Shown here one piece after another: positions 680-9,826 of a stretch of 10,080 bases of DNA. The stretch is taken from contig CALARM010000388.1 in the NCBI GenBank assembly GCA_937888925.1, positions 1 to 10,080 on the forward strand, in the 5' to 3' direction. The position numbers and the translations under genes are program-made. Under the pieces are notes generated by a model. The model made no database searches. It was not told the DNA's origin and saw nothing but the letters and a program-made list of their open reading frames with translations. Source of the DNA: an uncultured Synergistia bacterium. Lineage in GTDB: Bacteria; Eremiobacterota; SpSt-956; JAKJGF01. Positions within the stretch are counted from its first letter, which is position 1; each line of letters starts with the position of its first letter.

Positions 680-770
680 GTGAGTCGTGACCGGTGACCA
701 GTTATCAGTGACCAGTGACCAGTTATCAGTTATCGGTGACCAGTGACCAGTTACCAGTTACCAGTTATAT
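680..770 (+). repeat. Heptamer array, 13 phased 7-bp units (GTGACCA/GTTATCA/GTTACCA type)
   Basis: Thirteen consecutive 7-bp units run without a phase break. GTGACCA occurs five times, GTTATCA twice and GTTACCA twice; GTGAGTC, GTGACCG, GTTATCG and a final GTTATAT occur once each. All share G-T-(G/T)-A in positions 1-4. This is the longest array of the window. It lies directly upstream of the minus-strand TPR start at 669, with its units reading away from that gene. Confidence 0.95.
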
Positions 771-793
771 TATCATATACAAAATCTGCTTAT

Positions 794-814
794 ACCTCAC
801 TCTTCACTCTTCAC
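794..814 (-). repeat. Heptamer array, 3 units (GTGAAGA, GTGAAGA, GTGAGGT), overlapping the HD-GYP stop
   Basis: Read on the minus strand the units are GTGAAGA (814-808), GTGAAGA (807-801) and GTGAGGT (800-794). The HD-GYP stop codon TGA (806-804) lies inside the second unit. The last codons before it (G, E, E) are array-encoded. The array faces the plus-oriented array at 680-770, giving a convergent pair. Confidence 0.88.
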
Positions 815-2249
815 CCTTTCTGTCTTTAATCTTAAAATTAAGATTTCCCTGAGGTTTTGCCTTGAAATTAAATTTCTCTTCCAGCATTTTTATGTCATTT
901 TCATATAAGGAAATATTTATTTCTCCTTTTTTTGCCAGTGCATATATAAAAGCAGGAACGAGGGTGGGATCAAACTGTGTACCGGAACATCTTATCAATT
1001 CCTTTACTGCCATATCTGCAGTAAGAGCTTTCCTGTAAGGACGATCTTCCGTCATGGCATCAAAGGTATCACATATGGCTATTATTCTTGCCTGAAGTGG
1101 TATGGCAAGGCCTGATATCCTGTCAGGATAACCGTAACCATCCCATTTTTCATGATGATGTCTTATACCGGGCAGTGCGCCATGAAGAGCAGGATAGGGA
1201 AGTACTATTTCTACTCCTATCATGGGATGTTTTTTTATCTGTGCAAATTCCTCGTCATTGAGTTTACTGTTTTTATTTAAGATTGTATCAGGAATTCTCA
1301 TTTTACCTATATCATGAAGGTTACCGCATTCTCTGAGAGAATTTTTTATATCCCTGATATAATTTAAAATATCTCCTTCACCATCTTTTTTCAGATAGGA
1401 AAAACCGTCAGGGCCGTACTGGCCTATATCTTTGAAAAAGGCTGCATTTTTAAGGTTTTCAAGCTGTTGTTCATCATTAATTCCCAGTTCTTCAGCAAGC
1501 CCCATAGTTAAATCCATTACTCTGTTGGAATGTTCAAAGGTATAAGCAGAATGTATTTTCATAAGAACTCCGAGAATTCCCGATGTAGTATCTTCTTTAT
1601 CTTCCGCTTTTCTTGCTTTTTTCAATATATCCCATATGGCTGAAGCGGCATTTCTTATGGCTACTCTGAGCTGTTCCTGAGAAGGTCCTCCTCCGGAAGA
1701 ACCTGAAACTGCTGCCTGTCTTGTTTCCATGAACTGCTTCATATCCGTCTTTCTCAGGGAATCAAGACCTCCTTTTCCCATAGCGGAAGATGTAAATTCT
1801 TTATTTATAAGTTTTTTTGCATCATCAAGTCTTGAAAAGGGTTTTTTTGTTGCCATACCTTTTGAGCCTTCAGGAGAACCTGAAGCAGCAGCGGATTTTT
1901 GACCTTCCTGTGTATTTTTTGTCTGCCCCTGTTTCTCGCCGGCATCTTCTTTTGCAAAGCCGCTGCCAAGTAATGGCATGGCTATTTCCGTAAGGTGTTT
2001 CATTACGCCGGAAGATAGTTTCGGATCTGACGTAAGACCGCTTTCTGACATAGATTTGGAAAGTTGCGAAAGGGATACCATTTTGCCCTGTATACCTGTA
2101 GATGTGCTGTCCTGGGTAAAGGCGGGAGGACTCTGGGCAGTAGATGTATCTTTAGGCGTCATTTCCTGACTCTGTTTCGGCGTCAGACCAGGAGATACAA
2201 AACCTGGCTGAATTGAAGGTTTAAAAGATGATGTTCCTTTAATATCCAT
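804..2249 (-). CDS. HD-GYP domain protein, probable cyclic-di-GMP phosphodiesterase
   Basis: A 481-residue protein. Residues 1 to about 220 are low-complexity (Ser, Gly, Lys, Gln, Thr, Pro) and probably disordered. Residues about 230-440 form an HD-GYP hydrolase domain: H240, the HD pair in LHDIGK (H312, D313), HP at 341-342, HHHE at 364-367, the GYGYP signature at 371-375 and the downstream CDTFDAMTEDRPYR. HD-GYP enzymes hydrolyse cyclic-di-GMP through a metal centre, and all the canonical ligands seem present, so activity is likely. No receiver or membrane sensor is fused, so input may come from another protein such as the response regulator next door. Oddity: a degenerate HD-like motif, FKDIGQ (272-277), precedes the true HD by about 39 residues. 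The start at 2249 is preferred because AAGGA lies 9 bases upstream. A longer in-frame start at 2318 would make protein from a repeat array. Confidence 0.93.
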   Translation of the reverse strand: MDIKGTSSFKPSIQPGFVSPGLTPKQSQEMTPKDTSTAQSPPAFTQDSTSTGIQGKMVSLSQLSKSMSESGLTSDPKLSSGVMKHLTEIAMPLLGSGFAKEDAGEKQGQTKNTQEGQKSAAASGSPEGSKGMATKKPFSRLDDAKKLINKEFTSSAMGKGGLDSLRKTDMKQFMETRQAAVSGSSGGGPSQEQLRVAIRNAASAIWDILKKARKAEDKEDTTSGILGVLMKIHSAYTFEHSNRVMDLTMGLAEELGINDEQQLENLKNAAFFKDIGQYGPDGFSYLKKDGEGDILNYIRDIKNSLRECGNLHDIGKMRIPDTILNKNSKLNDEEFAQIKKHPMIGVEIVLPYPALHGALPGIRHHHEKWDGYGYPDRISGLAIPLQARIIAICDTFDAMTEDRPYRKALTADMAVKELIRCSGTQFDPTLVPAFIYALAKKGEINISLYENDIKMLEEKFNFKAKPQGNLNFKIKDRKGEE

Positions 2250-2258
2250 AAAATGTAA

Positions 2259-2263
2259 TCCTT
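2259..2263 (-). promoter_or_regulatory. Ribosome binding site of the HD-GYP gene (AAGGA)
   Basis: AAGGA read on the minus strand, 9 bases from ATG at 2249. It decides for the start MDIKG over the upstream in-frame start at 2318, which has no such site. Confidence 0.7.
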
Positions 2264-2269
2264 GTGTTC

Positions 2270-2287
2270 GTAACGCGTTACGCGTAA
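2270..2287 (+). repeat. Short heptamer array of CGC type in the HD-GYP leader
   Basis: GTAACGC (2270-2276), GTTACGC (2277-2283) and the beginning of a third unit, GTAA. Because the core is ACGCGTTACGCGT it is nearly palindromic and can be read on either strand. It sits 20 bp upstream of the HD-GYP start codon and includes the ACGCGT hexamer. Confidence 0.75.
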
Positions 2288-2301
2288 ATTTTATCTGTTT
2301 T

Positions 2302-2307
2302 ATTATA
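2302..2307 (-). promoter_or_regulatory. Possible -10 element for the HD-GYP gene (TATAAT)
   Basis: A perfect TATAAT on the minus strand, about 50 bp upstream of ATG, in very A+T-rich DNA. No convincing -35 hexamer is found at 16-18 bp; the run there is CTTTTT or ACTTTT. If it is used, transcription would start near 2295 and the CGC array at 2270-2287 would lie at the start of the leader. Confidence 0.35.
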
Positions 2308-2351
2308 TATAAGTACAAAATAAAAAAAAGTAAAGTCTATTACATAAAATA

Positions 2352-2393
2352 GTGAGGCGTAATCAGTGAACAGTGAGCAGTGAACAGTGAGCA
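2352..2393 (+). repeat. Heptamer array, 6 units with alternating GTGAACA/GTGAGCA
   Basis: Units in perfect phase: GTGAGGC, GTAATCA, then GTGAACA and GTGAGCA alternating twice. The alternation implies a 14-bp higher-order unit (a duplicated pair). It converges on the minus-oriented array at 2432-2473. Confidence 0.93.
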
Positions 2394-2428
2394 GATTAAG
2401 ACAGATATTACTTTATTAATGGCAATAG

Positions 2429-2473
2429 AACTGATAACTGGTAACTGATAACTGGTAACTGTTCATGCATCAC
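2429..2473 (-). repeat. Heptamer array, 6 units with alternating GTTACCA/GTTATCA, overlapping the response-regulator stop
   Basis: On the minus strand: GTGATGC (2473-2467), ATGAACA (2466-2460), then GTTACCA and GTTATCA alternating twice down to 2432, and a partial unit GTTC to 2429. The stop TGA of the response regulator (2465-2463) is inside ATGAACA, which is a GTGAACA unit with G to A at position 1. As in the facing array, two unit types alternate as a 14-bp pair. Confidence 0.92.
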
Positions 2474-3275
2474 GCTCATATTCCCTGTAATATTTCTTTT
2501 TATGTACAGCAAGCACTTCTTCTACTTTTTTTACAAGTTCAACAGGATCGAAGGGTTTTGATAAATATTCTTTTATTCCTACATCATAGGCTATTTTTAT
2601 ATCTTCAAATTGATCTTTTGCTGTGAGTATAATGAAAGGAATATTTTTTGTCGAATTCTTCTCCTGAAGTTTCAAATAAAAAGTTATTCCGTCCATTTTG
2701 GGCATCATAACATCTGAAACTATGAGATCTATAGCATAATTATTTTCCTCCAGTATTTCAAGAGCTCTGTATGGTTGAGGAGCTGACCATACTTTATATC
2801 CTTCCAGTTTAAAAAGAGATACTACAATATTTAAAATCGTACTGTCATCTTCTACAATTAACAGTTTTATGTTTTCTTTTTTCAGTTCCTCTTCTTCAGA
2901 AGGGAAAATTTCTGCAAGTGTTTCTGCAAGTTTTGAAAAGTTATCCGGTCTATCGAGAGTATATTTAAGACCTAACCGTTTAAATTCCGACATATCTCTT
3001 TCACTTGCAAGATAGAGAACTATCAGAGGAATGGAAGAAACTGCAGGATTATTTTTGATTTCCTCACATAAAAACCATCCGTCCATATCAGATATAGATA
3101 TATCTATTATTATGGCATCCAGTTTTTTCTTTTTTATAATATTAGATGCTTCTGAGCCTGTTACTGCAGTGTAAATATCAAAATTTCCTTTTTCCAGGGT
3201 ATTTTCTATTTCTTTTAAGAGAGATTTTTCATCTTCTATTATTAAAATTTTAGGAATTTTAGGAATAAGAATCAA
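2463..3275 (-). CDS. Response regulator with two receiver (REC) domains and no output domain
   Basis: A 270-residue protein made of two CheY-like receiver domains joined by a short acidic linker (about 125-135). REC2 (about 136-256) looks fully functional: acidic pocket E142-D143-D144, phospho-acceptor D188 in SDVMMPKMDG, T218 in ILTA and K240 in SKP. REC1 (about 9-124) keeps the acidic pocket (E14, D15, E16) and D58, but the switch Thr/Ser is Y88 and the conserved Lys is R109, so it is probably degenerate. With no DNA-binding or enzymatic output, it may pass phosphorylation or allosteric signals to a partner; the HD-GYP protein next to it is a natural candidate, by inference only. The start is TTG at 3275. 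An in-frame TAA lies 18-16 bases upstream, no ATG is near, and the only purine-rich stretch (AAAAGAG) touches the codon, so the start is less certain than the domains. Confidence 0.92.
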   Translation of the reverse strand: MILIPKIPKILIIEDEKSLLKEIENTLEKGNFDIYTAVTGSEASNIIKKKKLDAIIIDISISDMDGWFLCEEIKNNPAVSSIPLIVLYLASERDMSEFKRLGLKYTLDRPDNFSKLAETLAEIFPSEEEELKKENIKLLIVEDDSTILNIVVSLFKLEGYKVWSAPQPYRALEILEENNYAIDLIVSDVMMPKMDGITFYLKLQEKNSTKNIPFIILTAKDQFEDIKIAYDVGIKEYLSKPFDPVELVKKVEEVLAVHKKKYYREYERDA

Positions 3276-3296
3276 CTCTTTTCGTAATAATTATTG

Positions 3297-3348
3297 GTCG
3301 TGACGGGTAACGCGTAACGCGTGACGGGAAGATTTCCCTTTTCACGAC
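3297..3348 (+). other. Nested inverted repeat (hairpin potential) between two converging arrays
   Basis: Outer arms GTCGTGA (3297-3303) and TCACGAC (3342-3348) are exact complements. Inside them GGGAA (3326-3330) and TTCCC (3334-3338) form a 5-bp stem with loop GAT, followed by TTTT. The arms belong to the two converging heptamer arrays. The inner hairpin plus T-run resembles a weak terminator for rightward (antisense to the response regulator) transcription. No role is proven. Confidence 0.45.
3300..3327 (+). repeat. Heptamer array, 4 units (GTGACGG, GTAACGC, GTAACGC, GTGACGG)
   Basis: Four units in phase with a symmetrical order. It lies 24 bp upstream of the response-regulator start at 3275 and contains the ACGCGT hexamer at the unit junctions. 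Units read away from the gene. Confidence 0.9.
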
Positions 3349-3366
3349 TCACTACTCACTACTCAC
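3339..3366 (-). repeat. Heptamer array, 4 units (GTGAGTA, GTGAGTA, GTGAGTC, GTGAAAA)
   Basis: Minus-strand units 3366-3360, 3359-3353, 3352-3346 and 3345-3339, in perfect phase. It faces the plus-oriented array at 3300-3327 across an 11-bp spacer that carries the GGGAA/TTCCC hairpin. Confidence 0.9.
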
Positions 3367-3422
3367 CATTCTCTTAATAAAATTCATCTCTTCCCATAGG
3401 AATCCTTCTTTGAAATTTGCTA

Positions 3423-3451
3423 TTGCTTCAATTAATCTGAATTGATATAAT
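3423..3451 (+). promoter_or_regulatory. Probable sigma70-type promoter of the aminotransferase operon, extended -10
   Basis: TATAAT (3446-3451) matches the -10 consensus in all six positions and is preceded by TGA (3443-3445), an extended -10. A weak -35 (TTGCTT, 3423-3428) lies exactly 17 bp upstream. Transcription would begin near 3458, putting the CGC heptamer array at 3463-3483 at the very start of the leader. Confidence 0.6.
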
Positions 3452-3462
3452 TAAACAATAAG

Positions 3463-3483
3463 CATCTACGCGTTACGCGTCAC
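3463..3483 (-). repeat. Short heptamer array of CGC type in the aminotransferase leader
   Basis: Minus-strand units GTGACGC (3483-3477) and GTAACGC (3476-3470), with a weaker third, GTAGATG (3469-3463). It sits between the predicted transcription start and the Shine-Dalgarno site AAGGAG (3491-3496), 19 bp before the ATG. Confidence 0.75.
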
Positions 3484-3502
3484 GAAACAAAAGGAGTTTA
3501 TT

Positions 3503-4708
3503 ATGGCAATAATTAAATTATCACAGAGAAGTTATGATATTCAGGCATCACCTATAAGAAAGCTCACTCCCTATGCAGATGAAGCAAAAAGAAGGGGCAT
3601 AAAGGTTTACCACCTGAATATAGGTCAGCCTGATATAGAAACACCGCCAGTATACTGGGAAGCTATTCGTAAATACGGAGAGAAGGTATTGAAATACGGA
3701 CCGAGTAACGGTATAGGTCTTTATCTGGAATCTCTTAAAAAATATTATAATAAACTTGGCTTTAATGTAAGAAGTGACGATATATTTGTCACAACTGCAG
3801 GAAGTGAAGCAATAATATTCACCTTTCTTGCGGTAATGAATCCGGGGGAAGAGGTAATAATTCCCGAACCTTATTATACAAATTATAACGGTTTTGCCAC
3901 TATGGCTGGAGTTAATATTATTCCTCTTACAACCTATATAGAGGAAGGTTTTAAACTTCCTCCTGCAGAAAAATTCGAGGAAAAAATAACAGATAAAACA
4001 AAAGCCATTTTGCTCTGTAATCCGGGAAATCCCACGGGAACAGTTTATTCTGAAGAAGAACTCTCAATGGTAGTAGAGCTTGCAAAAAAATACAATTTAT
4101 TCCTTATTACAGATGAAGTTTACAGAGAATTTATTTATGACGGACTCAAGCATACGAGTATAATGGAGTTTACCGGTATTGATAAACGGGCTATAGTGGT
4201 AGATAGCATATCCAAGAGATTTTCCGCCTGCGGAGCAAGGGTGGGCTGTATTGTATGTAAAAATAAAGAATTTATGGAATCTGTCATGAAATTCGGGCAG
4301 GCAAGACTCTGCCCTCCTACTCTGGAACAGATTGGTGCAATTGCACTTCATGAACTGGGGGTAGATTATTTTAAAAGTATTTATGATGAGTATAAACTCA
4401 GAAGAAATACCCTTTATGAAGGACTTGTATCTATTCCCGATGTAATTGTTCATAAGCCTCAAGGTGCTTTTTATATGGTTGCAAGATTTCCTGTGAAAGA
4501 TACGGAAGATTTTGCCACATGGCTTCTCAGGGATTTTGATGTTGACGGAGAAACGGTTATGTTTGCTCCTCTCGATGGTTTTTATGGCACTCAGGGTCTG
4601 GGGAAGGATGAATTGAGACTTGCCTATATATTGAACTGTCATGATATAAAGAAATCTCTTGTCATATTAAAAGAAGGGCTTGCCAGATATAAAAGTTCCG
4701 GTAAATAG
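3503..4708 (+). CDS. PLP-dependent class I/II aminotransferase, aspartate aminotransferase-like
   Basis: A 401-residue, full-length fold-type I aminotransferase, cytoplasmic. Diagnostic residues are in order: the N-terminal LNIGQPDIETP (38-48), NPGNPTG at 173-179 with the cofactor-contacting Asn, D204 and Y207 in ITDEVYREF, the Schiff-base lysine K238 in DSISKRFSACGARVG, the phosphate-binding R246, and R372 in ELRLAY, which binds the substrate carboxylate. It transfers an amino group between an amino acid and a 2-oxo acid. The closest remembered relatives are aspartate-type aminotransferases sharing the ASPIRKL start and SK-[RF]-SACGAR motif, so aspartate/2-oxoglutarate is a reasonable but unproven substrate pair. 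AAGGAG lies 6 bases before ATG. The next gene begins 18 bp after the stop, so the two are probably co-transcribed from the promoter at 3423-3451. No biosynthetic neighbour helps to assign the pathway. Confidence 0.93.
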   Translation: MAIIKLSQRSYDIQASPIRKLTPYADEAKRRGIKVYHLNIGQPDIETPPVYWEAIRKYGEKVLKYGPSNGIGLYLESLKKYYNKLGFNVRSDDIFVTTAGSEAIIFTFLAVMNPGEEVIIPEPYYTNYNGFATMAGVNIIPLTTYIEEGFKLPPAEKFEEKITDKTKAILLCNPGNPTGTVYSEEELSMVVELAKKYNLFLITDEVYREFIYDGLKHTSIMEFTGIDKRAIVVDSISKRFSACGARVGCIVCKNKEFMESVMKFGQARLCPPTLEQIGAIALHELGVDYFKSIYDEYKLRRNTLYEGLVSIPDVIVHKPQGAFYMVARFPVKDTEDFATWLLRDFDVDGETVMFAPLDGFYGTQGLGKDELRLAYILNCHDIKKSLVILKEGLARYKSSGK

Positions 4709-4726
4709 ATTTGAAAGGATGGCTCA

Positions 4727-5221
4727 ATGATTGAGAATGGTAAAAAAGACTACCGTACCGGTGCAACTTTTATTTTACTGATCTGTTTTTTTCTATGTCT
4801 GGCTGTTTCTTTATTCTATGGCTCAGTAGCTGCTGTTTTCAGAGCAGTCAGAGCGTCGAAATGGCAGAAAACACCATGTTATATACAATCATGCAATCTG
4901 CAAGAATATAAGGCGAAACATGGTATTAGATACAGAATTAAAATGTCTTATAGGTATGAATTTAAAGGGAAAGAATATACTTCTGATAGTTATAGTCTTA
5001 TAGATGAGACTGATCCTTCAATAACCCCGGAAGAACGTCATGATTTTATAAGACAGTATTATGGAAAGGGTAAAAAAAATTTCTGTTATGTGAATCCGAA
5101 AAATCCTGAAGAGGCTGTAATTACTAAGAAAATAGGTGTATTTTTTATTATAGGTACCTGTTTATGCGGATTATTTTCTACAGGAATTACATGCCTGTGT
5201 ATAATAATTTTTTTATATTAG
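4727..5221 (+). CDS. DUF3592-like membrane protein, function unknown
   Basis: A 164-residue protein with a hydrophobic segment near each end (about 13-38 and 136-163) and a polar central domain between them. The centre has the layout I associate with DUF3592: a Trp-x-x-Thr-Pro start (W46, T49, P50), a YRYEFKGKEYTSD strand pair (75-87), a YYGKGKK turn (111-117) and YVNPKNPEEAV (121-131), which resembles the family's Y-x-N-P-x-N-P-x-x-A motif. The central domain would lie on one face of the cytoplasmic membrane; its role is not known. It is preceded by AAAGGA 7 bases before ATG and starts 18 bp after the aminotransferase. This is the only tight junction in the window and one of two gaps without a clean heptamer array, consistent with a shared transcript. 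Confidence 0.78.
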   Translation: MIENGKKDYRTGATFILLICFFLCLAVSLFYGSVAAVFRAVRASKWQKTPCYIQSCNLQEYKAKHGIRYRIKMSYRYEFKGKEYTSDSYSLIDETDPSITPEERHDFIRQYYGKGKKNFCYVNPKNPEEAVITKKIGVFFIIGTCLCGLFSTGITCLCIIIFLY

Positions 5222-5261
5222 AAAATGTGTAAGCGTTAAGCTATCAGCATGTTTATCATCA

Positions 5262-5279
5262 TCGTGTCACAGGGCACGA
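5262..5279 (+). other. Small inverted repeat in the DUF3592-FxLYD gap
   Basis: TCGTG (5262-5266) and CACGA (5275-5279) are complementary arms around an 8-base loop. The preceding bases (5227-5248) contain GTGTAAG, GTTAAGC and TATCAGC, roughly 7-8 bp apart, which may be a decayed heptamer array. Both calls are weak; otherwise nothing is seen in this 82-bp gap apart from the ribosome binding site. Confidence 0.25.
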
Positions 5280-5303
5280 GCATAAATATATGAGGTGAAT
5301 ATT

Positions 5304-6137
5304 ATGTTAAAAACGTTATTGATTTTTCTTTTACTATTTTCTTTTACTTTACCTGTATGGTCAAGAGATAAGAATGTTTTAAATCCTACGAAAGGAATCG
5401 GTGATGTAATTTCTTTCGGAGAGGAAATAAATATTGATAAAGCGAAGGAAGCCTTTGGAAATCTCACCAAAGTAGACAGGCCCGGTCTTAACAGTGATAA
5501 TGCAGATATAAAAATTTATAATTTCACCAGAGGCTTTACCTGTCTTACGGCAAATGATAAGGTTGTTCAGATGCAGATAGGCAGTGATAATATCGTTCTG
5601 GATTCAGGTGTCAAAGTAGGAGATGATGCAGGTGATATTACTGATGAATATGGAAATGTTTTTGTAACAGAAGGAAATCCTAAATATGGAGAGGGGACTA
5701 TGATATTCAATCTATATCCTGATTATATTATTGCTTTTACAATAAATTATGAAGGTAAATGTACCAATATAATGTGTGCCAACTGTGATTTAATATATAA
5801 AATGTCTCCTTCCACTTCTATTTTAAAATACTGGGACGCTCCTGTAGATATTAAGTCTGCCAGCAGCAGAGATACGATAAAGATCATGAAAAATACTTCT
5901 TCCGTAGATGGCAAATATATGATAGTAAAGGGGGAAATTCTGAATATCGGTAATAAAGAACTGAGATATGTCCAGGCAGGTGTTACTTTTTACGATGTTA
6001 ACGGTCAGGTTGTTGATGTAGTAAATGCCTATATACCCGGTATACATCTTCAGCCGGGAGAAACGTCTCCTTTTACTGTCATATCTACACAGGGCAAACT
6101 TACTGCTACATATAATATAAAAATTACCAATCAATGA
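5304..6137 (+). CDS. Exported protein with C-terminal FxLYD-like domain
   Basis: A 277-residue protein. Residues 1-20 (MLKTLLIFLLLFSFTLPVWS) are a clear Sec signal peptide with likely cleavage after VWS, so it is secreted or envelope-located. There is no lipobox cysteine. The middle (about 28-170) is beta-rich and unassigned; GVKVGDDAGDITDEYGN (102-118) recalls the helix-turn of small envelope proteins that repeat a G-D-x-x-x-x-(V/I)-x-x-x-(Y/F)-G motif. A cysteine cluster occurs at C153, C158 and C161. Residues about 205-270 (VKGEILNIGNKELRYVQAGV, then FYDVNGQVVD and LQPGETSPFTV) match the FxLYD pattern, a beta-sandwich found in extracytoplasmic proteins and of unclear ligand. An in-frame GTG at 5295 lies within the ribosome binding site GAGGTG, so ATG at 5304, 6 bases from that site, is chosen. 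Confidence 0.8.
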   Translation: MLKTLLIFLLLFSFTLPVWSRDKNVLNPTKGIGDVISFGEEINIDKAKEAFGNLTKVDRPGLNSDNADIKIYNFTRGFTCLTANDKVVQMQIGSDNIVLDSGVKVGDDAGDITDEYGNVFVTEGNPKYGEGTMIFNLYPDYIIAFTINYEGKCTNIMCANCDLIYKMSPSTSILKYWDAPVDIKSASSRDTIKIMKNTSSVDGKYMIVKGEILNIGNKELRYVQAGVTFYDVNGQVVDVVNAYIPGIHLQPGETSPFTVISTQGKLTATYNIKITNQ

Positions 6138-6144
6138 TTGATCT

Positions 6145-6158
6145 GTGAAAAGTGAATC
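6145..6158 (+). repeat. Two heptamer units (GTGAAAA, GTGAATC) after the FxLYD gene
   Basis: Two phased plus-strand units begin 7 bp after the stop codon. They face the minus-oriented CGC array at 6163-6190. Alone the pair would be weak; the same layout in the other gaps supports it. Confidence 0.6.
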
Positions 6159-6162
6159 CCAC

Positions 6163-6190
6163 CCGTTACGCGTCACGCTTCATGCGTCAC
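6163..6190 (-). repeat. Heptamer array of CGC type, 4 units, upstream of the acidic protein gene
   Basis: Minus-strand units GTGACGC (6190-6184), ATGAAGC (6183-6177), GTGACGC (6176-6170) and GTAACGG (6169-6163); a fifth, diverged GTGGGAT would follow. ATGAAGC shows the same G to A change at position 1 as ATGAACA at 2466-2460. It lies 22 bp before the TTG start at 6213. Confidence 0.88.
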
Positions 6191-6197
6191 ACTTTAT

Positions 6198-6204
6198 AAG
6201 GAGG
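6198..6204 (+). promoter_or_regulatory. Strong ribosome binding site (AAGGAGG) deciding a TTG start
   Basis: AAGGAGG is an ideal Shine-Dalgarno match, 8 bases upstream of TTG at 6213, with no ATG at a suitable distance. It makes TTG the start of the acidic protein. Confidence 0.8.
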
Positions 6205-6212
6205 TTTCGCCT

Positions 6213-7454
6213 TTGTATTTTTCAGATTTTATTGTAAAATTTGAAGATTTCCTTTCCGGACATATTGATAGAGAAGATTTTTTATCTGCCCTGGAACCAT
6301 TAGAAAATGATCTTTTAGATATGGAAGAAATTGCCAGAGAAGCCAGGAAATCTACAGAAGCTATAGTAAAATCTCTGGAAGTAATAGATGATATTTCAAT
6401 ACTTCTTGAAGAAGAAGAGCCATGTTTTGCCAGACTCAAAGTCTGTCTGGAAAAATTAATAGAATTAAAGATATATTTTGACACTGATGAAAAACCTTCT
6501 CCTGTATCTGAAAATAAATTTTTTGATCAGACAAAACAAGTCTCCGGTCTTACGGGGCAATTGAGATTTAGCGAACCATCCTTTTATTTCCATCCCAATA
6601 TGAAAATTAAAATACCTCAGGCTCAACCTGTTTCCGGGCCATGTGAGCTTTCCGACATAGAACTGAAAATATCGCCTTTATATAATCTCATAGAATTTGC
6701 AAAAAATTACATGTCTTCCGTTGGAAATATGACAGATTTCTCTGAAATTCTGGAAAAAACCTGTAGAGACCTTTGCAAACTGTCAGAAGAAGGTGCTAAT
6801 TCAGATAATAATTTTATTTGTTTTATAGAAGAATCTATTGATAAGATTAATGAAATAGAAGACTTTGTCGAAGAAGCTGATTTTATGGAAGATCTGCCTG
6901 ATTTCATAGAAGAATTGCAAATGTTGAATGAGAAGTTTATTAATTTTCAGAAACGTCCCTTCCAGGATGAAATAGCCATGACAGATGAGAAACTGATTGA
7001 AGAATTGTACAATAGAATAGATCCGGACATTTTTATTACATCCAATTACCTTCTGATATGTAATAAACTGGAGAGCTTTCTTAATGATGAAACAGATGAA
7101 GAGGATGTGAAAAAAATACTTGCCTCAATAAAAGAAATAATCACATTTGCGAGAGAAGATTATGAAAAATCTTATATATCACCGGAAGAATGGACTCTGG
7201 AGGTTTGCACAGGTGATAAGTTGCTTTCCGAAGGTATCGACACATGGAAAGAAGGCCTTGTAGCCCTGGAAGAATGCTTTACAGAGAGAAATAAAGAAGA
7301 AATAGATAAAGCTATATCCATAATTTTTGAAGGAAATAAGAAACTTATTTTAAATCAATATCTTGCAGAATATATAGATGAACAGTTGATGTTAAATAAA
7401 ACCTACAATGAGAAAGATTTTAGTGAAGTGTTAAGGGTGAAGAGTGAAGGGTGA
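6213..7454 (+). CDS. Acidic, helical hypothetical protein
   Basis: A 413-residue protein that I do not recognise. It is very rich in Glu and Asp, with Lys, Leu and Ile spaced as in amphipathic helices, for example in residues 20-90 and again in the last 250. There is no signal peptide, membrane segment, nucleotide-binding motif or catalytic signature, so a cytoplasmic structural or interaction role is the most one can suggest. The TTG start is supported by AAGGAGG 8 bases upstream. The C-terminus is unusual: the codons from S-E-V onward (7423-7454), including the TGA stop, coincide with GTGAAGT, GTTAAGG, GTGAAGA, GTGAAGG and GTGATTG repeat units, so about ten terminal residues are translated repeat DNA. 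It lies between the FxLYD and HEAT-TPR genes with a heptamer array on each side, and probably has its own transcription unit. Confidence 0.82.
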   Translation: MYFSDFIVKFEDFLSGHIDREDFLSALEPLENDLLDMEEIAREARKSTEAIVKSLEVIDDISILLEEEEPCFARLKVCLEKLIELKIYFDTDEKPSPVSENKFFDQTKQVSGLTGQLRFSEPSFYFHPNMKIKIPQAQPVSGPCELSDIELKISPLYNLIEFAKNYMSSVGNMTDFSEILEKTCRDLCKLSEEGANSDNNFICFIEESIDKINEIEDFVEEADFMEDLPDFIEELQMLNEKFINFQKRPFQDEIAMTDEKLIEELYNRIDPDIFITSNYLLICNKLESFLNDETDEEDVKKILASIKEIITFAREDYEKSYISPEEWTLEVCTGDKLLSEGIDTWKEGLVALEECFTERNKEEIDKAISIIFEGNKKLILNQYLAEYIDEQLMLNKTYNEKDFSEVLRVKSEG

Positions 7455-7457
7455 TTG
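7423..7457 (+). repeat. Heptamer array, 5 units, encoding the C-terminus and stop of the acidic protein
   Basis: Phased units GTGAAGT, GTTAAGG, GTGAAGA, GTGAAGG and GTGATTG. The stop codon TGA (7452-7454) is the TGA of the last unit. Confidence 0.85.
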
Positions 7458-7475
7458 ATAAGTTTCACTTTTCAC
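7444..7475 (+). terminator. Hairpin formed by converging heptamer units, possible terminator
   Basis: GTGAAGGGTGA (7444-7454) can pair as RNA with TCACTTTTCAC (7465-7475): 11 bp including two G-U pairs, with a 10-base loop. Bases downstream are TATTTATTTAAATCT, moderately U-rich. The arms are GTGAAGG/GTGA on one side and GTGAAAA/GTGAAAC of the opposite array on the other. It is A+U-rich for an intrinsic terminator, so the call is tentative. Confidence 0.45.
7462..7475 (-). repeat. Two heptamer units (GTGAAAA, GTGAAAC)
   Basis: Minus-strand units 7475-7469 and 7468-7462, four bases from the end of the plus-oriented array at 7423-7457, making the tightest convergent pair in the window. Confidence 0.65.
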
Positions 7476-7543
7476 TATTTATTTAAATCTCCGGTAGGAA
7501 AAGGTTAATCTTTATAGAAATGTATAAAAATCTAATAAACTGA

Positions 7544-7578
7544 ACTTTACGCGTCACGCGTCACGCGTCACGCATCAT
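7544..7578 (-). repeat. Heptamer array of CGC type, 5 units, upstream of the HEAT-TPR gene
   Basis: Minus-strand units ATGATGC (7578-7572), GTGACGC three times (7571-7551) and GTAAAGT (7550-7544). It ends only 7 bp before the ATG at 7586, where a ribosome binding site would be expected. The 68 bp to its left (7476-7543) are A+T-rich and may hold a promoter, but no convincing -35/-10 pair was found. Confidence 0.93.
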
Positions 7579-7585
7579 GTAATTT

Positions 7586-9682
7586 ATGGATAAAGAAATA
7601 GTATCACTTATAGAGGATTACAGCACTTCCCGTCTTCACAGGGAAAAAGCACAGAAATCTCTGAAGAAATTAAATAGAAAAAAATCAGTTCTGGAAATAA
7701 TAGAAAGCCTGAAATCATCTGACAGGGATATGAAGAAGAAGGCTATTCTTGCCCTGGAGTTAATAAAGGACAGCCGTGCTACAGCGCCTCTTATAGAACT
7801 TCTTTCGGATGAAGACGAAGAGATAAGGGAACATGCCTGTATAGCCTTACAACTTACAGGCAGCAGAGCAGGAAAGTTACTCTTAAAATCTCTCAGGAGT
7901 GATAATATTTATGCCAGACGATATGCAGCTCTTATTCTCGGCAGTACTGGTTATAAAAGATCTGTAGATTACCTTATAAAATCTTTATATGATAAAGACC
8001 ATTACGTCAGGGCCAATGCTGCTCTTTCCCTGGGTACACTGGGAGATAAAAAAGCCAGAAAACATCTTGTAAGACTTCTGTGGGACAGTGTTACGGAAGT
8101 ACGTAAAAAAGCTATTTTTTCTCTCGGTCAGTTAGGGGGAAAATCTGTAATTCATCCTCTGAGTGAAGCTTTAAAGGACACAGATCCTTCTGTCAGGAAG
8201 GAAGCAGTCTTTGCTCTCAGGGCAACCGGTATTAAAGATGCCATTGAACCTCTTGCAGGAGCCCTTTCCGACTGTGATGAAAATATTCGTTACTGTGCTG
8301 CCATAGCACTGGAAGGGTTCGGTGATAGAAGAGCTCTGGATACTCTTATTGATTCTCTTAACAGCAAAGACATGTCGGTAAGAAGATATGCCATAGATTT
8401 ACTGGGTAAAATCGGTGACAAAAGAGCCCTTGAGCCACTGTTAAAACTTCTTTCTACGGTTAAAAAAGAAGGCTTTGATCTGACTCGCTACAGATTGAAT
8501 GACTCCATAGTGAAGCTTGGAGGTATTCCTGAAAGGAGATATCTTGCTATTAAAGCTCTTGAAGAAGGTAATTATGAGCTTGCCTTAAAAGAGATAGAAA
8601 AAGCTATAGAAGAAGACGGAGAAGACAGCAGACTTTATAATGATCTGGGAGATATTTACACGGAAACAGGTAATGTAAAAAAAGCACTGGAAGCCTATGA
8701 ATATGCTCTCAAACTGGACCCTGACAATGATTTATATTACAGGCAATCAGGTATAGAATATGCCAGGAGCGGCATGATAGACCATGCTATAAAAGCTTTC
8801 TTAAAGGCAGTTTCTTTAAATCCTGTAGCCTCTGACTATAATATGCTCGGAAATCTCTATAAAGAAAAGGGAGAATTTGTCATAGCTATAGATTATTATA
8901 ATAAAGCAATAAAATTAAATCCATGTAATCTGAAAGCCTGTCATAATCTGGCTTCTCTTTACAGTCACACCGGGGAATCCGAGAAAGCCCTGAGTACTTA
9001 TAAAAAGATTTTAAAGATAGATCCGAAAAATACCATGTCTTACCTGGGGCTTGCCATGGAATATGACCATCTGGGAAATATGGAAAAAACAATAGATATG
9101 GCAAAGAGTGCTATGGATATAGAACCTTCAAATACGTTGAGTCATCTTATCCTTGGCAATGCTTATTGCAGGACAGGACAATCCGATAAAGCAATTAATA
9201 TATTGAGATGGGCAGTAGAACTGGATTCTTCCAGTATTTTAAATCATACGGCTCTTGCTCTGGCCTATGAGAGAAATAAAGAGTATGATAATGCTCTGGA
9301 AGTGTGTAATAATGGCATGTCTCTGGAAGGGGATCATGGCTCTATATTCTGGTGTATGGGCGGGATATATTACAGTACGGGAGACATAGATAAATCTATA
9401 GAGTCTTATAGAAAAGCCCTGGAATTGAATCCGGAACAGATAGTTGATTTTTTAACGTCAGATGATGAGAGAGAAGATATTTTACAGAAACCGTTCAATG
9501 CTTTTAAAAAGTTACTGGACGATAAACCTGATGATATTATAGCCAGGTTTGCTATGGCCTATCTCTATAAAGCATATGGCAATAAAGATGAAGCGGAAAA
9601 ATGCTTTAAATATTGTATGGATAATGCCGATGATGTCACGATAGCCGATATGTGTTTCGGTGAAGTGAGTCGTGAGTCGTGA
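7586..9682 (+). CDS. HEAT-repeat plus TPR scaffold protein
   Basis: A 698-residue protein in two halves. Residues about 34-312 hold roughly nine 31-residue HEAT repeats of the PBS-lyase type, each with an A-x-x-A-L or L-G-x-x-G core, for example YVRANAALSLGTLGDKKA (140-157) and SVRRYAIDLLGKIGDKRALE (264-283). Residues about 319-690 hold about ten TPR units such as YNDLGDIYTETGNVKKALEA (351-370). Both halves are alpha-solenoid interaction surfaces; no catalytic residues, signal peptide or membrane segment is visible, so a cytoplasmic adaptor is likely. An in-frame TAA (7580-7582) stands just before the start, which rules out an earlier start, yet no Shine-Dalgarno site is present and the CGC array ends 7 bp away. 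At the other end the last residues V-S-R-E-S and the TGA stop are encoded by repeat units GTGAGTC, GTGAGTC and GTGAAAA. Confidence 0.93.
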   Translation: MDKEIVSLIEDYSTSRLHREKAQKSLKKLNRKKSVLEIIESLKSSDRDMKKKAILALELIKDSRATAPLIELLSDEDEEIREHACIALQLTGSRAGKLLLKSLRSDNIYARRYAALILGSTGYKRSVDYLIKSLYDKDHYVRANAALSLGTLGDKKARKHLVRLLWDSVTEVRKKAIFSLGQLGGKSVIHPLSEALKDTDPSVRKEAVFALRATGIKDAIEPLAGALSDCDENIRYCAAIALEGFGDRRALDTLIDSLNSKDMSVRRYAIDLLGKIGDKRALEPLLKLLSTVKKEGFDLTRYRLNDSIVKLGGIPERRYLAIKALEEGNYELALKEIEKAIEEDGEDSRLYNDLGDIYTETGNVKKALEAYEYALKLDPDNDLYYRQSGIEYARSGMIDHAIKAFLKAVSLNPVASDYNMLGNLYKEKGEFVIAIDYYNKAIKLNPCNLKACHNLASLYSHTGESEKALSTYKKILKIDPKNTMSYLGLAMEYDHLGNMEKTIDMAKSAMDIEPSNTLSHLILGNAYCRTGQSDKAINILRWAVELDSSSILNHTALALAYERNKEYDNALEVCNNGMSLEGDHGSIFWCMGGIYYSTGDIDKSIESYRKALELNPEQIVDFLTSDDEREDILQKPFNAFKKLLDDKPDDIIARFAMAYLYKAYGNKDEAEKCFKYCMDNADDVTIADMCFGEVSRES

Positions 9683-9692
9683 AAAGTAGGGG
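9665..9692 (+). repeat. Heptamer array, 4 units (GTGAGTC, GTGAGTC, GTGAAAA, GTAGGGG), overlapping the HEAT-TPR stop
   Basis: Phased plus-strand units. The TGA stop at 9680-9682 belongs to GTGAAAA. The last unit runs into the GC-rich hairpin at 9690-9711. The array converges on the minus-oriented units at 9722-9742. Confidence 0.85.
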
Positions 9693-9746
9693 CGATCACA
9701 GGGGGTCGCCCGGTACCGGTAAAAACACGCATCACACATCACGACT
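9675..9746 (+). other. Nested inverted repeat with GC-rich inner hairpin and CCGGTACCGG palindrome
   Basis: Outer arms AGTCGTGA (9675-9682) and TCACGACT (9739-9746) are perfect 8-bp complements and belong to the converging arrays. Inside, GGGCGA (9690-9695) pairs with TCGCCC (9706-9711) around a 10-base loop, followed directly by the 10-bp palindrome CCGGTACCGG (9710-9719). The GC content contrasts sharply with the surrounding DNA. No U-run follows on either strand, so a classic intrinsic terminator is unlikely; a REP-like palindromic element is the better description. Confidence 0.6.
9722..9742 (-). repeat. Heptamer array, 2-3 units (GTGATGT, GTGATGC, GTGTTTT)
   Basis: Minus-strand units 9742-9736 and 9735-9729, with a diverged third, 9728-9722. 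It forms the right half of the convergent pair in this gap. Confidence 0.7.
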
Positions 9747-9791
9747 GGCCTGAAACGTGAGTAATTTAAAAGCAAATTTTGTGAGGTGAGT

Positions 9792-9826
9792 TAACCACGC
9801 GTCACGCGTCACGCGTCACGCGTCAC
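9792..9826 (-). repeat. Heptamer array of CGC type, 5 units, abutting the last gene
   Basis: GTGACGC four times without change (9826-9799), then diverged GTGGTTA (9798-9792). It ends 7 bp before ATG at 9834. The identical copies suggest recent expansion. To its left GTGAG and GTGAGTT (9781-9792) occur in plus orientation but not in 7-bp phase. Confidence 0.93.

Follow-up and report, generated by a model that had tools for sequence, protein, structure and literature searches.

The window (the whole stretch of DNA analyzed, 10,080 nucleotides) encodes, according to Pfam, proteins with TPR, HD-domain, response-regulator, aminotransferase, DUF3592 and HEAT/TPR matches, together with two proteins without a Pfam match. 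All six gaps that bear tandem heptamer arrays open with GTGA on the plus strand and close with GTGA on the minus strand. The genes beside these gaps lie, in order, on strands --, --, -+, ++, ++ and ++. The arrays are as follows, G001 being the relative genome described below.

680..770, plus strand: left arm of pair 1, 13 GTKANNN units of the GTGACCA/GTTATCA type.
794..814, minus strand: right arm of pair 1, three GTGAAGA/GTGAGGT units; the TGA stop of the HD-domain gene (804-806) is within the arm.
2268..2290, both strands: short palindromic GTAACGCGTTACG array upstream of the HD-domain gene.
2352..2393, plus strand: left arm of pair 2, six units, GTGAACA/GTGAGCA and others.
2429..2473, minus strand: right arm of pair 2, GTTACCA/GTTATCA units (2432-2459), followed by GTGATGC where the response-regulator gene ends (3').
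3300..3327, plus strand: left arm of pair 3, four GTGACGG/GTAACGC units, in a gap between divergent genes.
3339..3366, minus strand: right arm of pair 3, four GTGAGTA/GTGAGTC/GTGAAAA units.
3470..3483, minus strand: one-sided short array, flanked by a stretch conserved with G001 and by the aminotransferase ribosome-binding site.
6145..6158, plus strand: left arm of pair 4, two units.
6163..6190, minus strand: right arm of pair 4, two clean units (6163-6176), the rest degenerate.
7423..7457, plus strand: left arm of pair 5, five units, starting within conserved Ser-Glu codons of a 413-aa protein.
7462..7475, minus strand: right arm of pair 5, two units.
7544..7578, minus strand: one-sided array of the GTGACGC type, directly upstream of the HEAT/TPR gene.
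9665..9685, plus strand: left arm of pair 6, three GTGAGTC/GTGAAAA units, holding the HEAT/TPR gene stop (9680-9682).
9686..9720, no strand: GTAGGGGCGATCAC..GGTCGCCC palindrome between the pair 6 arms, a hairpin in the RNA fold.
9729..9742, minus strand: right arm of pair 6, two GTGATGT/GTGATGC units.
9758..9790, plus strand: non-phased GTGAG units that may open a second pair within the pair 6 gap.
9799..9826, minus strand: array of the possible second pair, four GTGACGC units.

The conserved stretch beside the 3470-3483 array looks promoter-like by eye, and the stop of the 413-aa protein (7452-7454) is part of the pair 5 left arm. This protein (6213-7454) has no Pfam match; at E<=1e-3 it has 8 other relatives among the candidates scored, one of them named Candidatus Eremiobacterota by its source. 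An Rfam search of the whole window gave 0 matches at the gathering threshold.

The arrays of the window and their polarity are real. GTGA repeated three times at 7-bp spacing occurred 8 times, compared to a mean of 0.00 and a maximum of 0 in 300 dinucleotide shuffles; the corresponding numbers were 13 for GTGA x2 (mean 0.16, maximum 2) and 8 for GT[GTA]A x4 (maximum 0). Every array listed in the sequence-only reading of this DNA was found at or inside its coordinates and in the orientation given there. That reading had described the units as GTGA; the arrays stand, but several units are GTTA or GTAA instead, and 2432-2459 consists wholly of GTTAYCA. Five arrays (6145-6158, 6163-6176, 7462-7475, 3470-3483 and 9729-9742) have only two clean units. 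The orientation assigned to 2268-2290 and 3305-3318 is partly ambiguous, since TAACGCGTTA-like stretches are palindromic and can be read on either strand. Finally, the GTGAG copies at about 9758-9790, previously taken as contrary to the polarity, can be read from their sequence as the left arm of another pair, whose right arm is the minus array at 9799-9826. Read in this way, they would break a rule set by gap edges and keep a rule set by an element.

The closest relative examined, G001, is a 5.0-Mb bacterial metagenome-assembled genome (MAG; contig title Bacillota bacterium UR.bin48), whose aminotransferase relative is 83% identical to that of the window. GTGANNNGTGANNNGTGA gave 348/343 matches in G001, compared to 76/78 for the reversed pattern. 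Among exact triple repeats with periods of 4 to 12 in 668 kb of G001, period 7 (n = 137) and period 12 (n = 134) stood out from all others (<=14); the period-12 repeats possibly belong to one long array. We scanned the whole genome with two gapped patterns at a spacing of 20 to 50 bp, counting overlapping matches separately, and obtained 279 convergent and 0 divergent matches; the reversed control pattern gave 22 matches. We further called 941 genes and 852 gaps with a custom gene caller in a G001 sample of 1,215,313 bases taken as stretches. Arrays with two or more units were merged, and a cluster had to include one or more arrays of three units. The 154 clusters comprised 95 "+-", 30 "+", 27 "-", 1 "-+-" and 1 "+-+" (57/154 one-sided, 2/154 mixed), and none was divergent. 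An opposite array faced 129 of the 187 arrays and backed one of them. With arrays of at least two units, we counted 92 convergent and 0 divergent neighbors 0 to 90 bp apart, 2 and 0 at 90 to 120 bp, and 9 and 6 at 120 to 600 bp. The orientation rule is real and strict at short range. It was less absolute when tested without the GTGA motif: tandem repeats of period 6 to 9 found by TRF, with the strand assigned by G skew, gave 62 "+-", 9 "-+", 14 "++" and 7 "--" neighbors in G001, and 1, 1, 0 and 2, respectively, in 1.1 Mb from genomes most of which lack arrays.

Polarity had been proposed to depend on gap edges and not on gene strand, and the two halves of this proposal fared differently. Convergent pairs occurred in all four gene contexts (34 ++, 26 --, 9 +- and 19 -+ among the 88 pairs with both neighbors called), and no cluster was divergent, in good agreement with independence from gene strand. 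Scoring array orientation in every gap, as had been suggested, also upheld the polarity: 130 of the 852 G001 gaps held arrays of at least three units, with 37 "+-", 49 "+" only, 44 "-" only and 0 "-+". That the gap edge itself sets the polarity is not supported, as convergence is short-range and one-sided clusters obeyed the edge in only 36 cases versus 19 (binomial P = 0.03). An edge effect does exist. It peaks at the 3' ends of genes, whose stop codon is often part of a GTGA-sense array; there, convergent pairs started at a median distance of 0.5 bp (56/78 within 10 bp) versus 34 bp at 5' ends (14/98 within 10 bp). Ten of the 88 convergent pairs were located more than 60 bp from both genes. 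The orientation rule is a property of the element more than of the gap: its reach is about 120 bp, and pairs at a good distance from genes obey it as well.

Arrays were nearer to the gene on their own 5' side in 126 cases versus 47, with medians of 22 versus 82 bp. When genes were trimmed by 30 bp, 153 of the 154 clusters were outside them; the midpoints of 19 of the 187 arrays fell within untrimmed called genes, none deeper than 60 bp. Within 15 bp, 130 stops accompanied GTGA-sense arrays and only 4 accompanied TCAC-sense arrays; TGA made up 71 of these 130 stops, compared to 173/763 elsewhere, and 73 stops in the sample lay inside arrays.

Arrays are homogeneous, while the two arms of a pair are nearly independent of each other. 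Adjacent units within an array were alike at 0.686 of triplet positions (0.362 at random), whereas the two arms were alike at 0.375 (0.357 by chance, standard deviation 0.020). Compared in the outer register, the arms reached 0.403 versus 0.347 (standard deviation 0.022), an excess of about 2.5 standard deviations. This excess came from spacers shorter than 20 bp (0.43 to 0.47 versus 0.33 to 0.37), and pairs with spacers of at least 20 bp showed no arm matching (88 of the 95 pairs were used, 7 falling outside the bins). A minority of pairs are thus near-perfect palindromes and most are not. Hairpin pairing was rejected as the basis of polarity because one arm's triplets say almost nothing about those of the other, the small excess at short spacers aside. 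Of the mechanisms offered in the sequence-only reading, paired insertion is the best fit, a directional binding protein is a less probable candidate, and the hairpin or cruciform is weak.

A minority of convergent pairs also share their cores. Among cores of at least 15 nt, 19/54 had further copies in the 1.2-Mb sample and 35/54 had no second copy; one AT-rich core linked 12 of the 95 pairs. A 130-bp inverted-repeat element with conserved terminal inverted repeats was present in 8 two-armed copies, one of which had lost its outer left end, and each copy enclosed a convergent pair. By eye, the units were of the GTGATGC/GTAATGC type in 7 copies and of the GTGAAAG type in 1. One repeated inverted-repeat element thus carries a pair. 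Palindromes of the GTAGGGGCGAAC..GTTCGCCCCTAC type sit between the arms at 9686-9720 of the window and in several G001 pairs; the strict palindrome pattern occurred 27 times in the G001 sample, twice within 80 bp of a cluster.

When the same gaps were compared between the window and G001, one was empty in the relative. At the TPR/HD junction, the window has a 135-bp pair (680-814), and G001 has a 4-bp gene overlap (ATGA) and no array; this is a single gap, and G001 may instead have undergone a deletion. The response-regulator 3' end carries a pair in both species, with the same coding GTGAT start and different units (codons compared by eye), for which an old site that turns over would fit as well as an insertion. 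GTGA arrays in the aminotransferase upstream region were found only in the window (3470-3483 is missing from G001). Upstream of the G001 aminotransferase gene, a CATTGTCATATTA..TAATATGACAATG inverted repeat (L001:8518-8601) occupies roughly the position of a heptamer array in the window. In five relatives of the 413-aa protein, the C terminus lies 1 to 8 residues beyond the conserved Ser/Gly-Glu/Asp, in whose codons the array of the window starts.

We thus propose, with a probability of about 0.5, that the convergent pair is a dispersed element resembling a MITE or REPIN, whose arms have been altered by slippage. Each pair would be one small element with two outer GTGANNN arms around a short core. 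Regardless of how a copy was placed, it would read GTGA(+)...GTGA(-), as its arms would be the two ends, mutually inverted, of a single unit. After insertion, each arm may grow, shrink or switch its triplet by slippage independently of the other, so that the arms of one copy would mostly no longer match. Copies would persist in intergenic DNA. Next to the 3' end of a gene, the element may abut or replace the native stop, because the GTGA strand offers TGA in all frames within three units. Transposition and the enzyme behind it, the slippage, and selection keeping the copies between genes are all presumed parts of this proposal.

In its favor, subtracting the element from its gap left median lengths close to those of element-free gaps in three contexts (57 versus 55 bp for ++, 280 versus 260 bp for -+ and 67 versus 43 bp for +-). 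Several results argue against a dispersed element. In -- gaps, the remaining length was much longer (104 versus 39 bp); 35 of the 54 cores were single; and no target-site duplication was apparent, as no clear excess of any k-mer or offset was seen among the 95 pairs for k of 3 to 9 at the tested boundary offsets (the maximum at k = 2, 21, was at an offset inside the arrays). Repeated flanks were likewise not in excess at clusters (33/154, compared to 39/150 array-free gaps), and our searches found no enzyme for such an element.

We also considered that one-sided arrays might be halves of pairs split by later insertions. One-sided clusters with one repeated flank had it on the front side in 13 cases and on the back side in 3 (P = 0.02), and there is one clear case, in contig C272. 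This reading was rejected as a general one, since array orientations near the 31 near-full copies of a 232-bp repeat were mixed (left plus 4, right minus 3, left minus 2, right plus 3). In C272, two tandem copies of this repeat are located between the arms of a heptamer pair (L222:967-1592, corresponding to G001 C272:20967-21592), and the CTAAG-like direct repeats at their borders resemble, by eye, a 5-bp target duplication.

REPIN and BIME elements are short inverted intergenic pairs of fixed polarity with a tetranucleotide at each outer end; they are mobilised by RAYT transposases, and their REP arms are hairpins tagged GTAG. The pairs of the window share with them the inverted intergenic arrangement, the polarity and the outer tetranucleotide but differ in having tandem heptamers in place of hairpin arms. 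IS200-like/RAYT-type transposases gave 6 matches in G001 and 0 in the array-rich Bacteroidales MAG G077; among 27 other genomes, 5 of the 9 with arrays and 12 of the 18 without arrays had any. Given this absence of association across G001, G077 and the 27 genomes, we rejected these enzymes as the driver.

Of 58 genomes searched as relatives, including G001, 6 had any match, and in the phylum, an array of four units was present in 4 of 149 genomes, which speaks against phylum-wide spread; in both searches, many matches occurred only in G001. The three-unit pattern was found in 9 of 27 further genomes, and a plasmid search with the longest array, run with the low-complexity filter on, gave no match. 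In G077, TRF neighbors within 100 bp were 7 "+-", 11 "--" and 0 "-+"; about 4.3 kb were counted twice (L062 overlaps L251), and no heptamer/octamer or different-period pair came from those loci. Arrays were also present in the Cloacimonadota MAG G062, in which neighbors were 5 "+-", 4 "-+", 13 "++" and 2 "--", and convergent polarity was not seen. Several heptamer families (GGGATTA-like, GTGAGTC and GTGATTG) occur at its loci L265, L270, L271 and others.

These genomes bear on an unlikely alternative, in which the arrays are scars of end extension: a break in intergenic DNA would be followed by extension of the 3' ends with a short G-strand repeat and then by joining. The added repeats would point to the break, as in a head-to-head telomere fusion, and each side would have its own array with a fixed polarity. 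The near independence of the arms in unit type is in agreement with this, as are the heptamer/octamer neighbors in G077, which were convergent in 4 of 4 cases though such arms cannot pair. Different-period neighbors within 100 bp were 5 convergent and 0 divergent (P = 0.06), but these G077 counts are low, a further 5 different-period pairs had both arrays on one strand, and G062 is without polarity. Among the 27 genomes, reverse transcriptases (PF00078) were found in 6 of the 9 with arrays and 4 of the 18 without (Fisher P = 0.04, uncorrected). None, however, was found in G001 or G077, the genomes with the most array hits (both MAGs, which may be incomplete), and we therefore rejected this enzyme as the driver. 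Furthermore, copying of whole pairs is evident from the recurring cores and from the copies of the 130-bp element. A broader version, which we consider quite unlikely, is that a general and so far unrecognized process in several phyla sets G-strand repeats on both sides of a gene junction, 3' facing 3'; each side could use its own repeat, even its own period (6, 7 or 8 bp), as though the DNA ends were tipped and then joined.

Paired binding sites, to which we also assign a low probability, would require a nucleoid or regulatory protein with directional binding to GTGA at 7-bp intervals and a need for two facing arrays, selection retaining GTGA while the triplets drift. The constant GTGA, the free triplet and the limited range of spacing fit such a protein, and opposite-strand octamer/heptamer pairs in Geobacter metallireducens have been proposed as IHF/HU sites (PMC2700814). 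The same gap, however, differs in array presence between relatives, and 57 of the 154 clusters are one-sided. Selection on translation alone is improbable. It would tolerate only GTGA-sense arrays by stops and TCAC-sense arrays by starts, convergence being a by-product. The excess of stops near GTGA-sense arrays and the enrichment of TGA agree with it, and it could explain the edge bias of one-sided arrays. For pairs it is contradicted, as the -+ gaps hold 19 convergent and 0 divergent pairs at median distances of 88 and 134 bp from the genes. In addition, the GGGAATC arrays of Xanthomonas (PMC4692102) have the same polarity, yet contain no stop codon on either strand (codons as read here).

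Least probable is a hairpin or cruciform acting as a transcription terminator or mRNA stabiliser: although 5 of 7 window elements folded as RNA with z scores of -1.8 to -3.4 relative to shuffles (the other two, -1.0 and -1.2) and arms are somewhat matched at spacers below 20 bp, they are unmatched at 20 bp and above, and hairpins do not explain polarity, because a divergent pair would fold as well. A terminator role was rejected, since gaps between convergent genes have the highest cluster density (1.84 per kb, compared to 0.87 to 1.27 in other contexts) but are not enriched by count (16% of +- gaps, compared to 15% of ++, 14% of -- and 28% of -+ gaps).

Convergence and outward placement were already published in 2015 for GGGAATC arrays in Xanthomonas (Rehm et al. 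2015, PMC4692102), and the window is a striking variant and not a new kind. That paper reports convergent heptamer pairs, 70 in Xcc and 75 in Xac; the arrays are mostly intergenic, almost always closer to their 5' neighbor gene irrespective of its strand, and in some cases overlap stop codons; the GGGGA(T/C)T arrays of Nostoc PCC 7120 form few pairs. The arrays of G001 and the window are likewise tandem heptamers that are mostly intergenic, convergent and nearer to the gene on the 5' side. The Rehm unit is fixed and G-quadruplex-forming, whereas here GTGA is followed by a free triplet, the arms are unlike each other and regular G tracts are missing. Because G001 units are GTGANNN and G-tract units are not the rule, these arrays resemble the GGGAATC family without belonging to it.

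TAACTGA repeats, described in Beggiatoaceae, cyanobacteria and Bacteroidetes (MacGregor 2015, PMC4679880), match the GTTATCA unit of the window once the latter is reverse-complemented and rotated. In the genome studied best, they are oriented to start codons in the same way as here, but they are mostly single arrays upstream of starts, with an inverted repeat in 1 of 170 sets. In G. metallireducens, tandem 7- and 8-mers are similarly paired on opposite strands at variable distance; their unit sequences and their proposed IHF/HU binding differ from what we see (PMC2700814). The BrickBuilt MITE of Porphyromonas gingivalis also has a tandem repeat inside an intergenic MITE, although this is one 23-nt array and not facing arms (PMC4596501). 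We found no report of such arrays in Eremiobacterota, or of arm independence, in the open-licence literature.

A short-range rule with 279 matches and no contrary one in a 5-Mb genome demands a mechanism. A similar rule has been published (PMC4692102) for a different, unrelated unit of the distant Xanthomonas lineage. The mostly non-matching arms rule out pairing in a hairpin as its cause and indicate a directional process. With arrays at 130 of the 893 scored stop codons of the G001 sample, these repeats bear on the evolution of gene ends.
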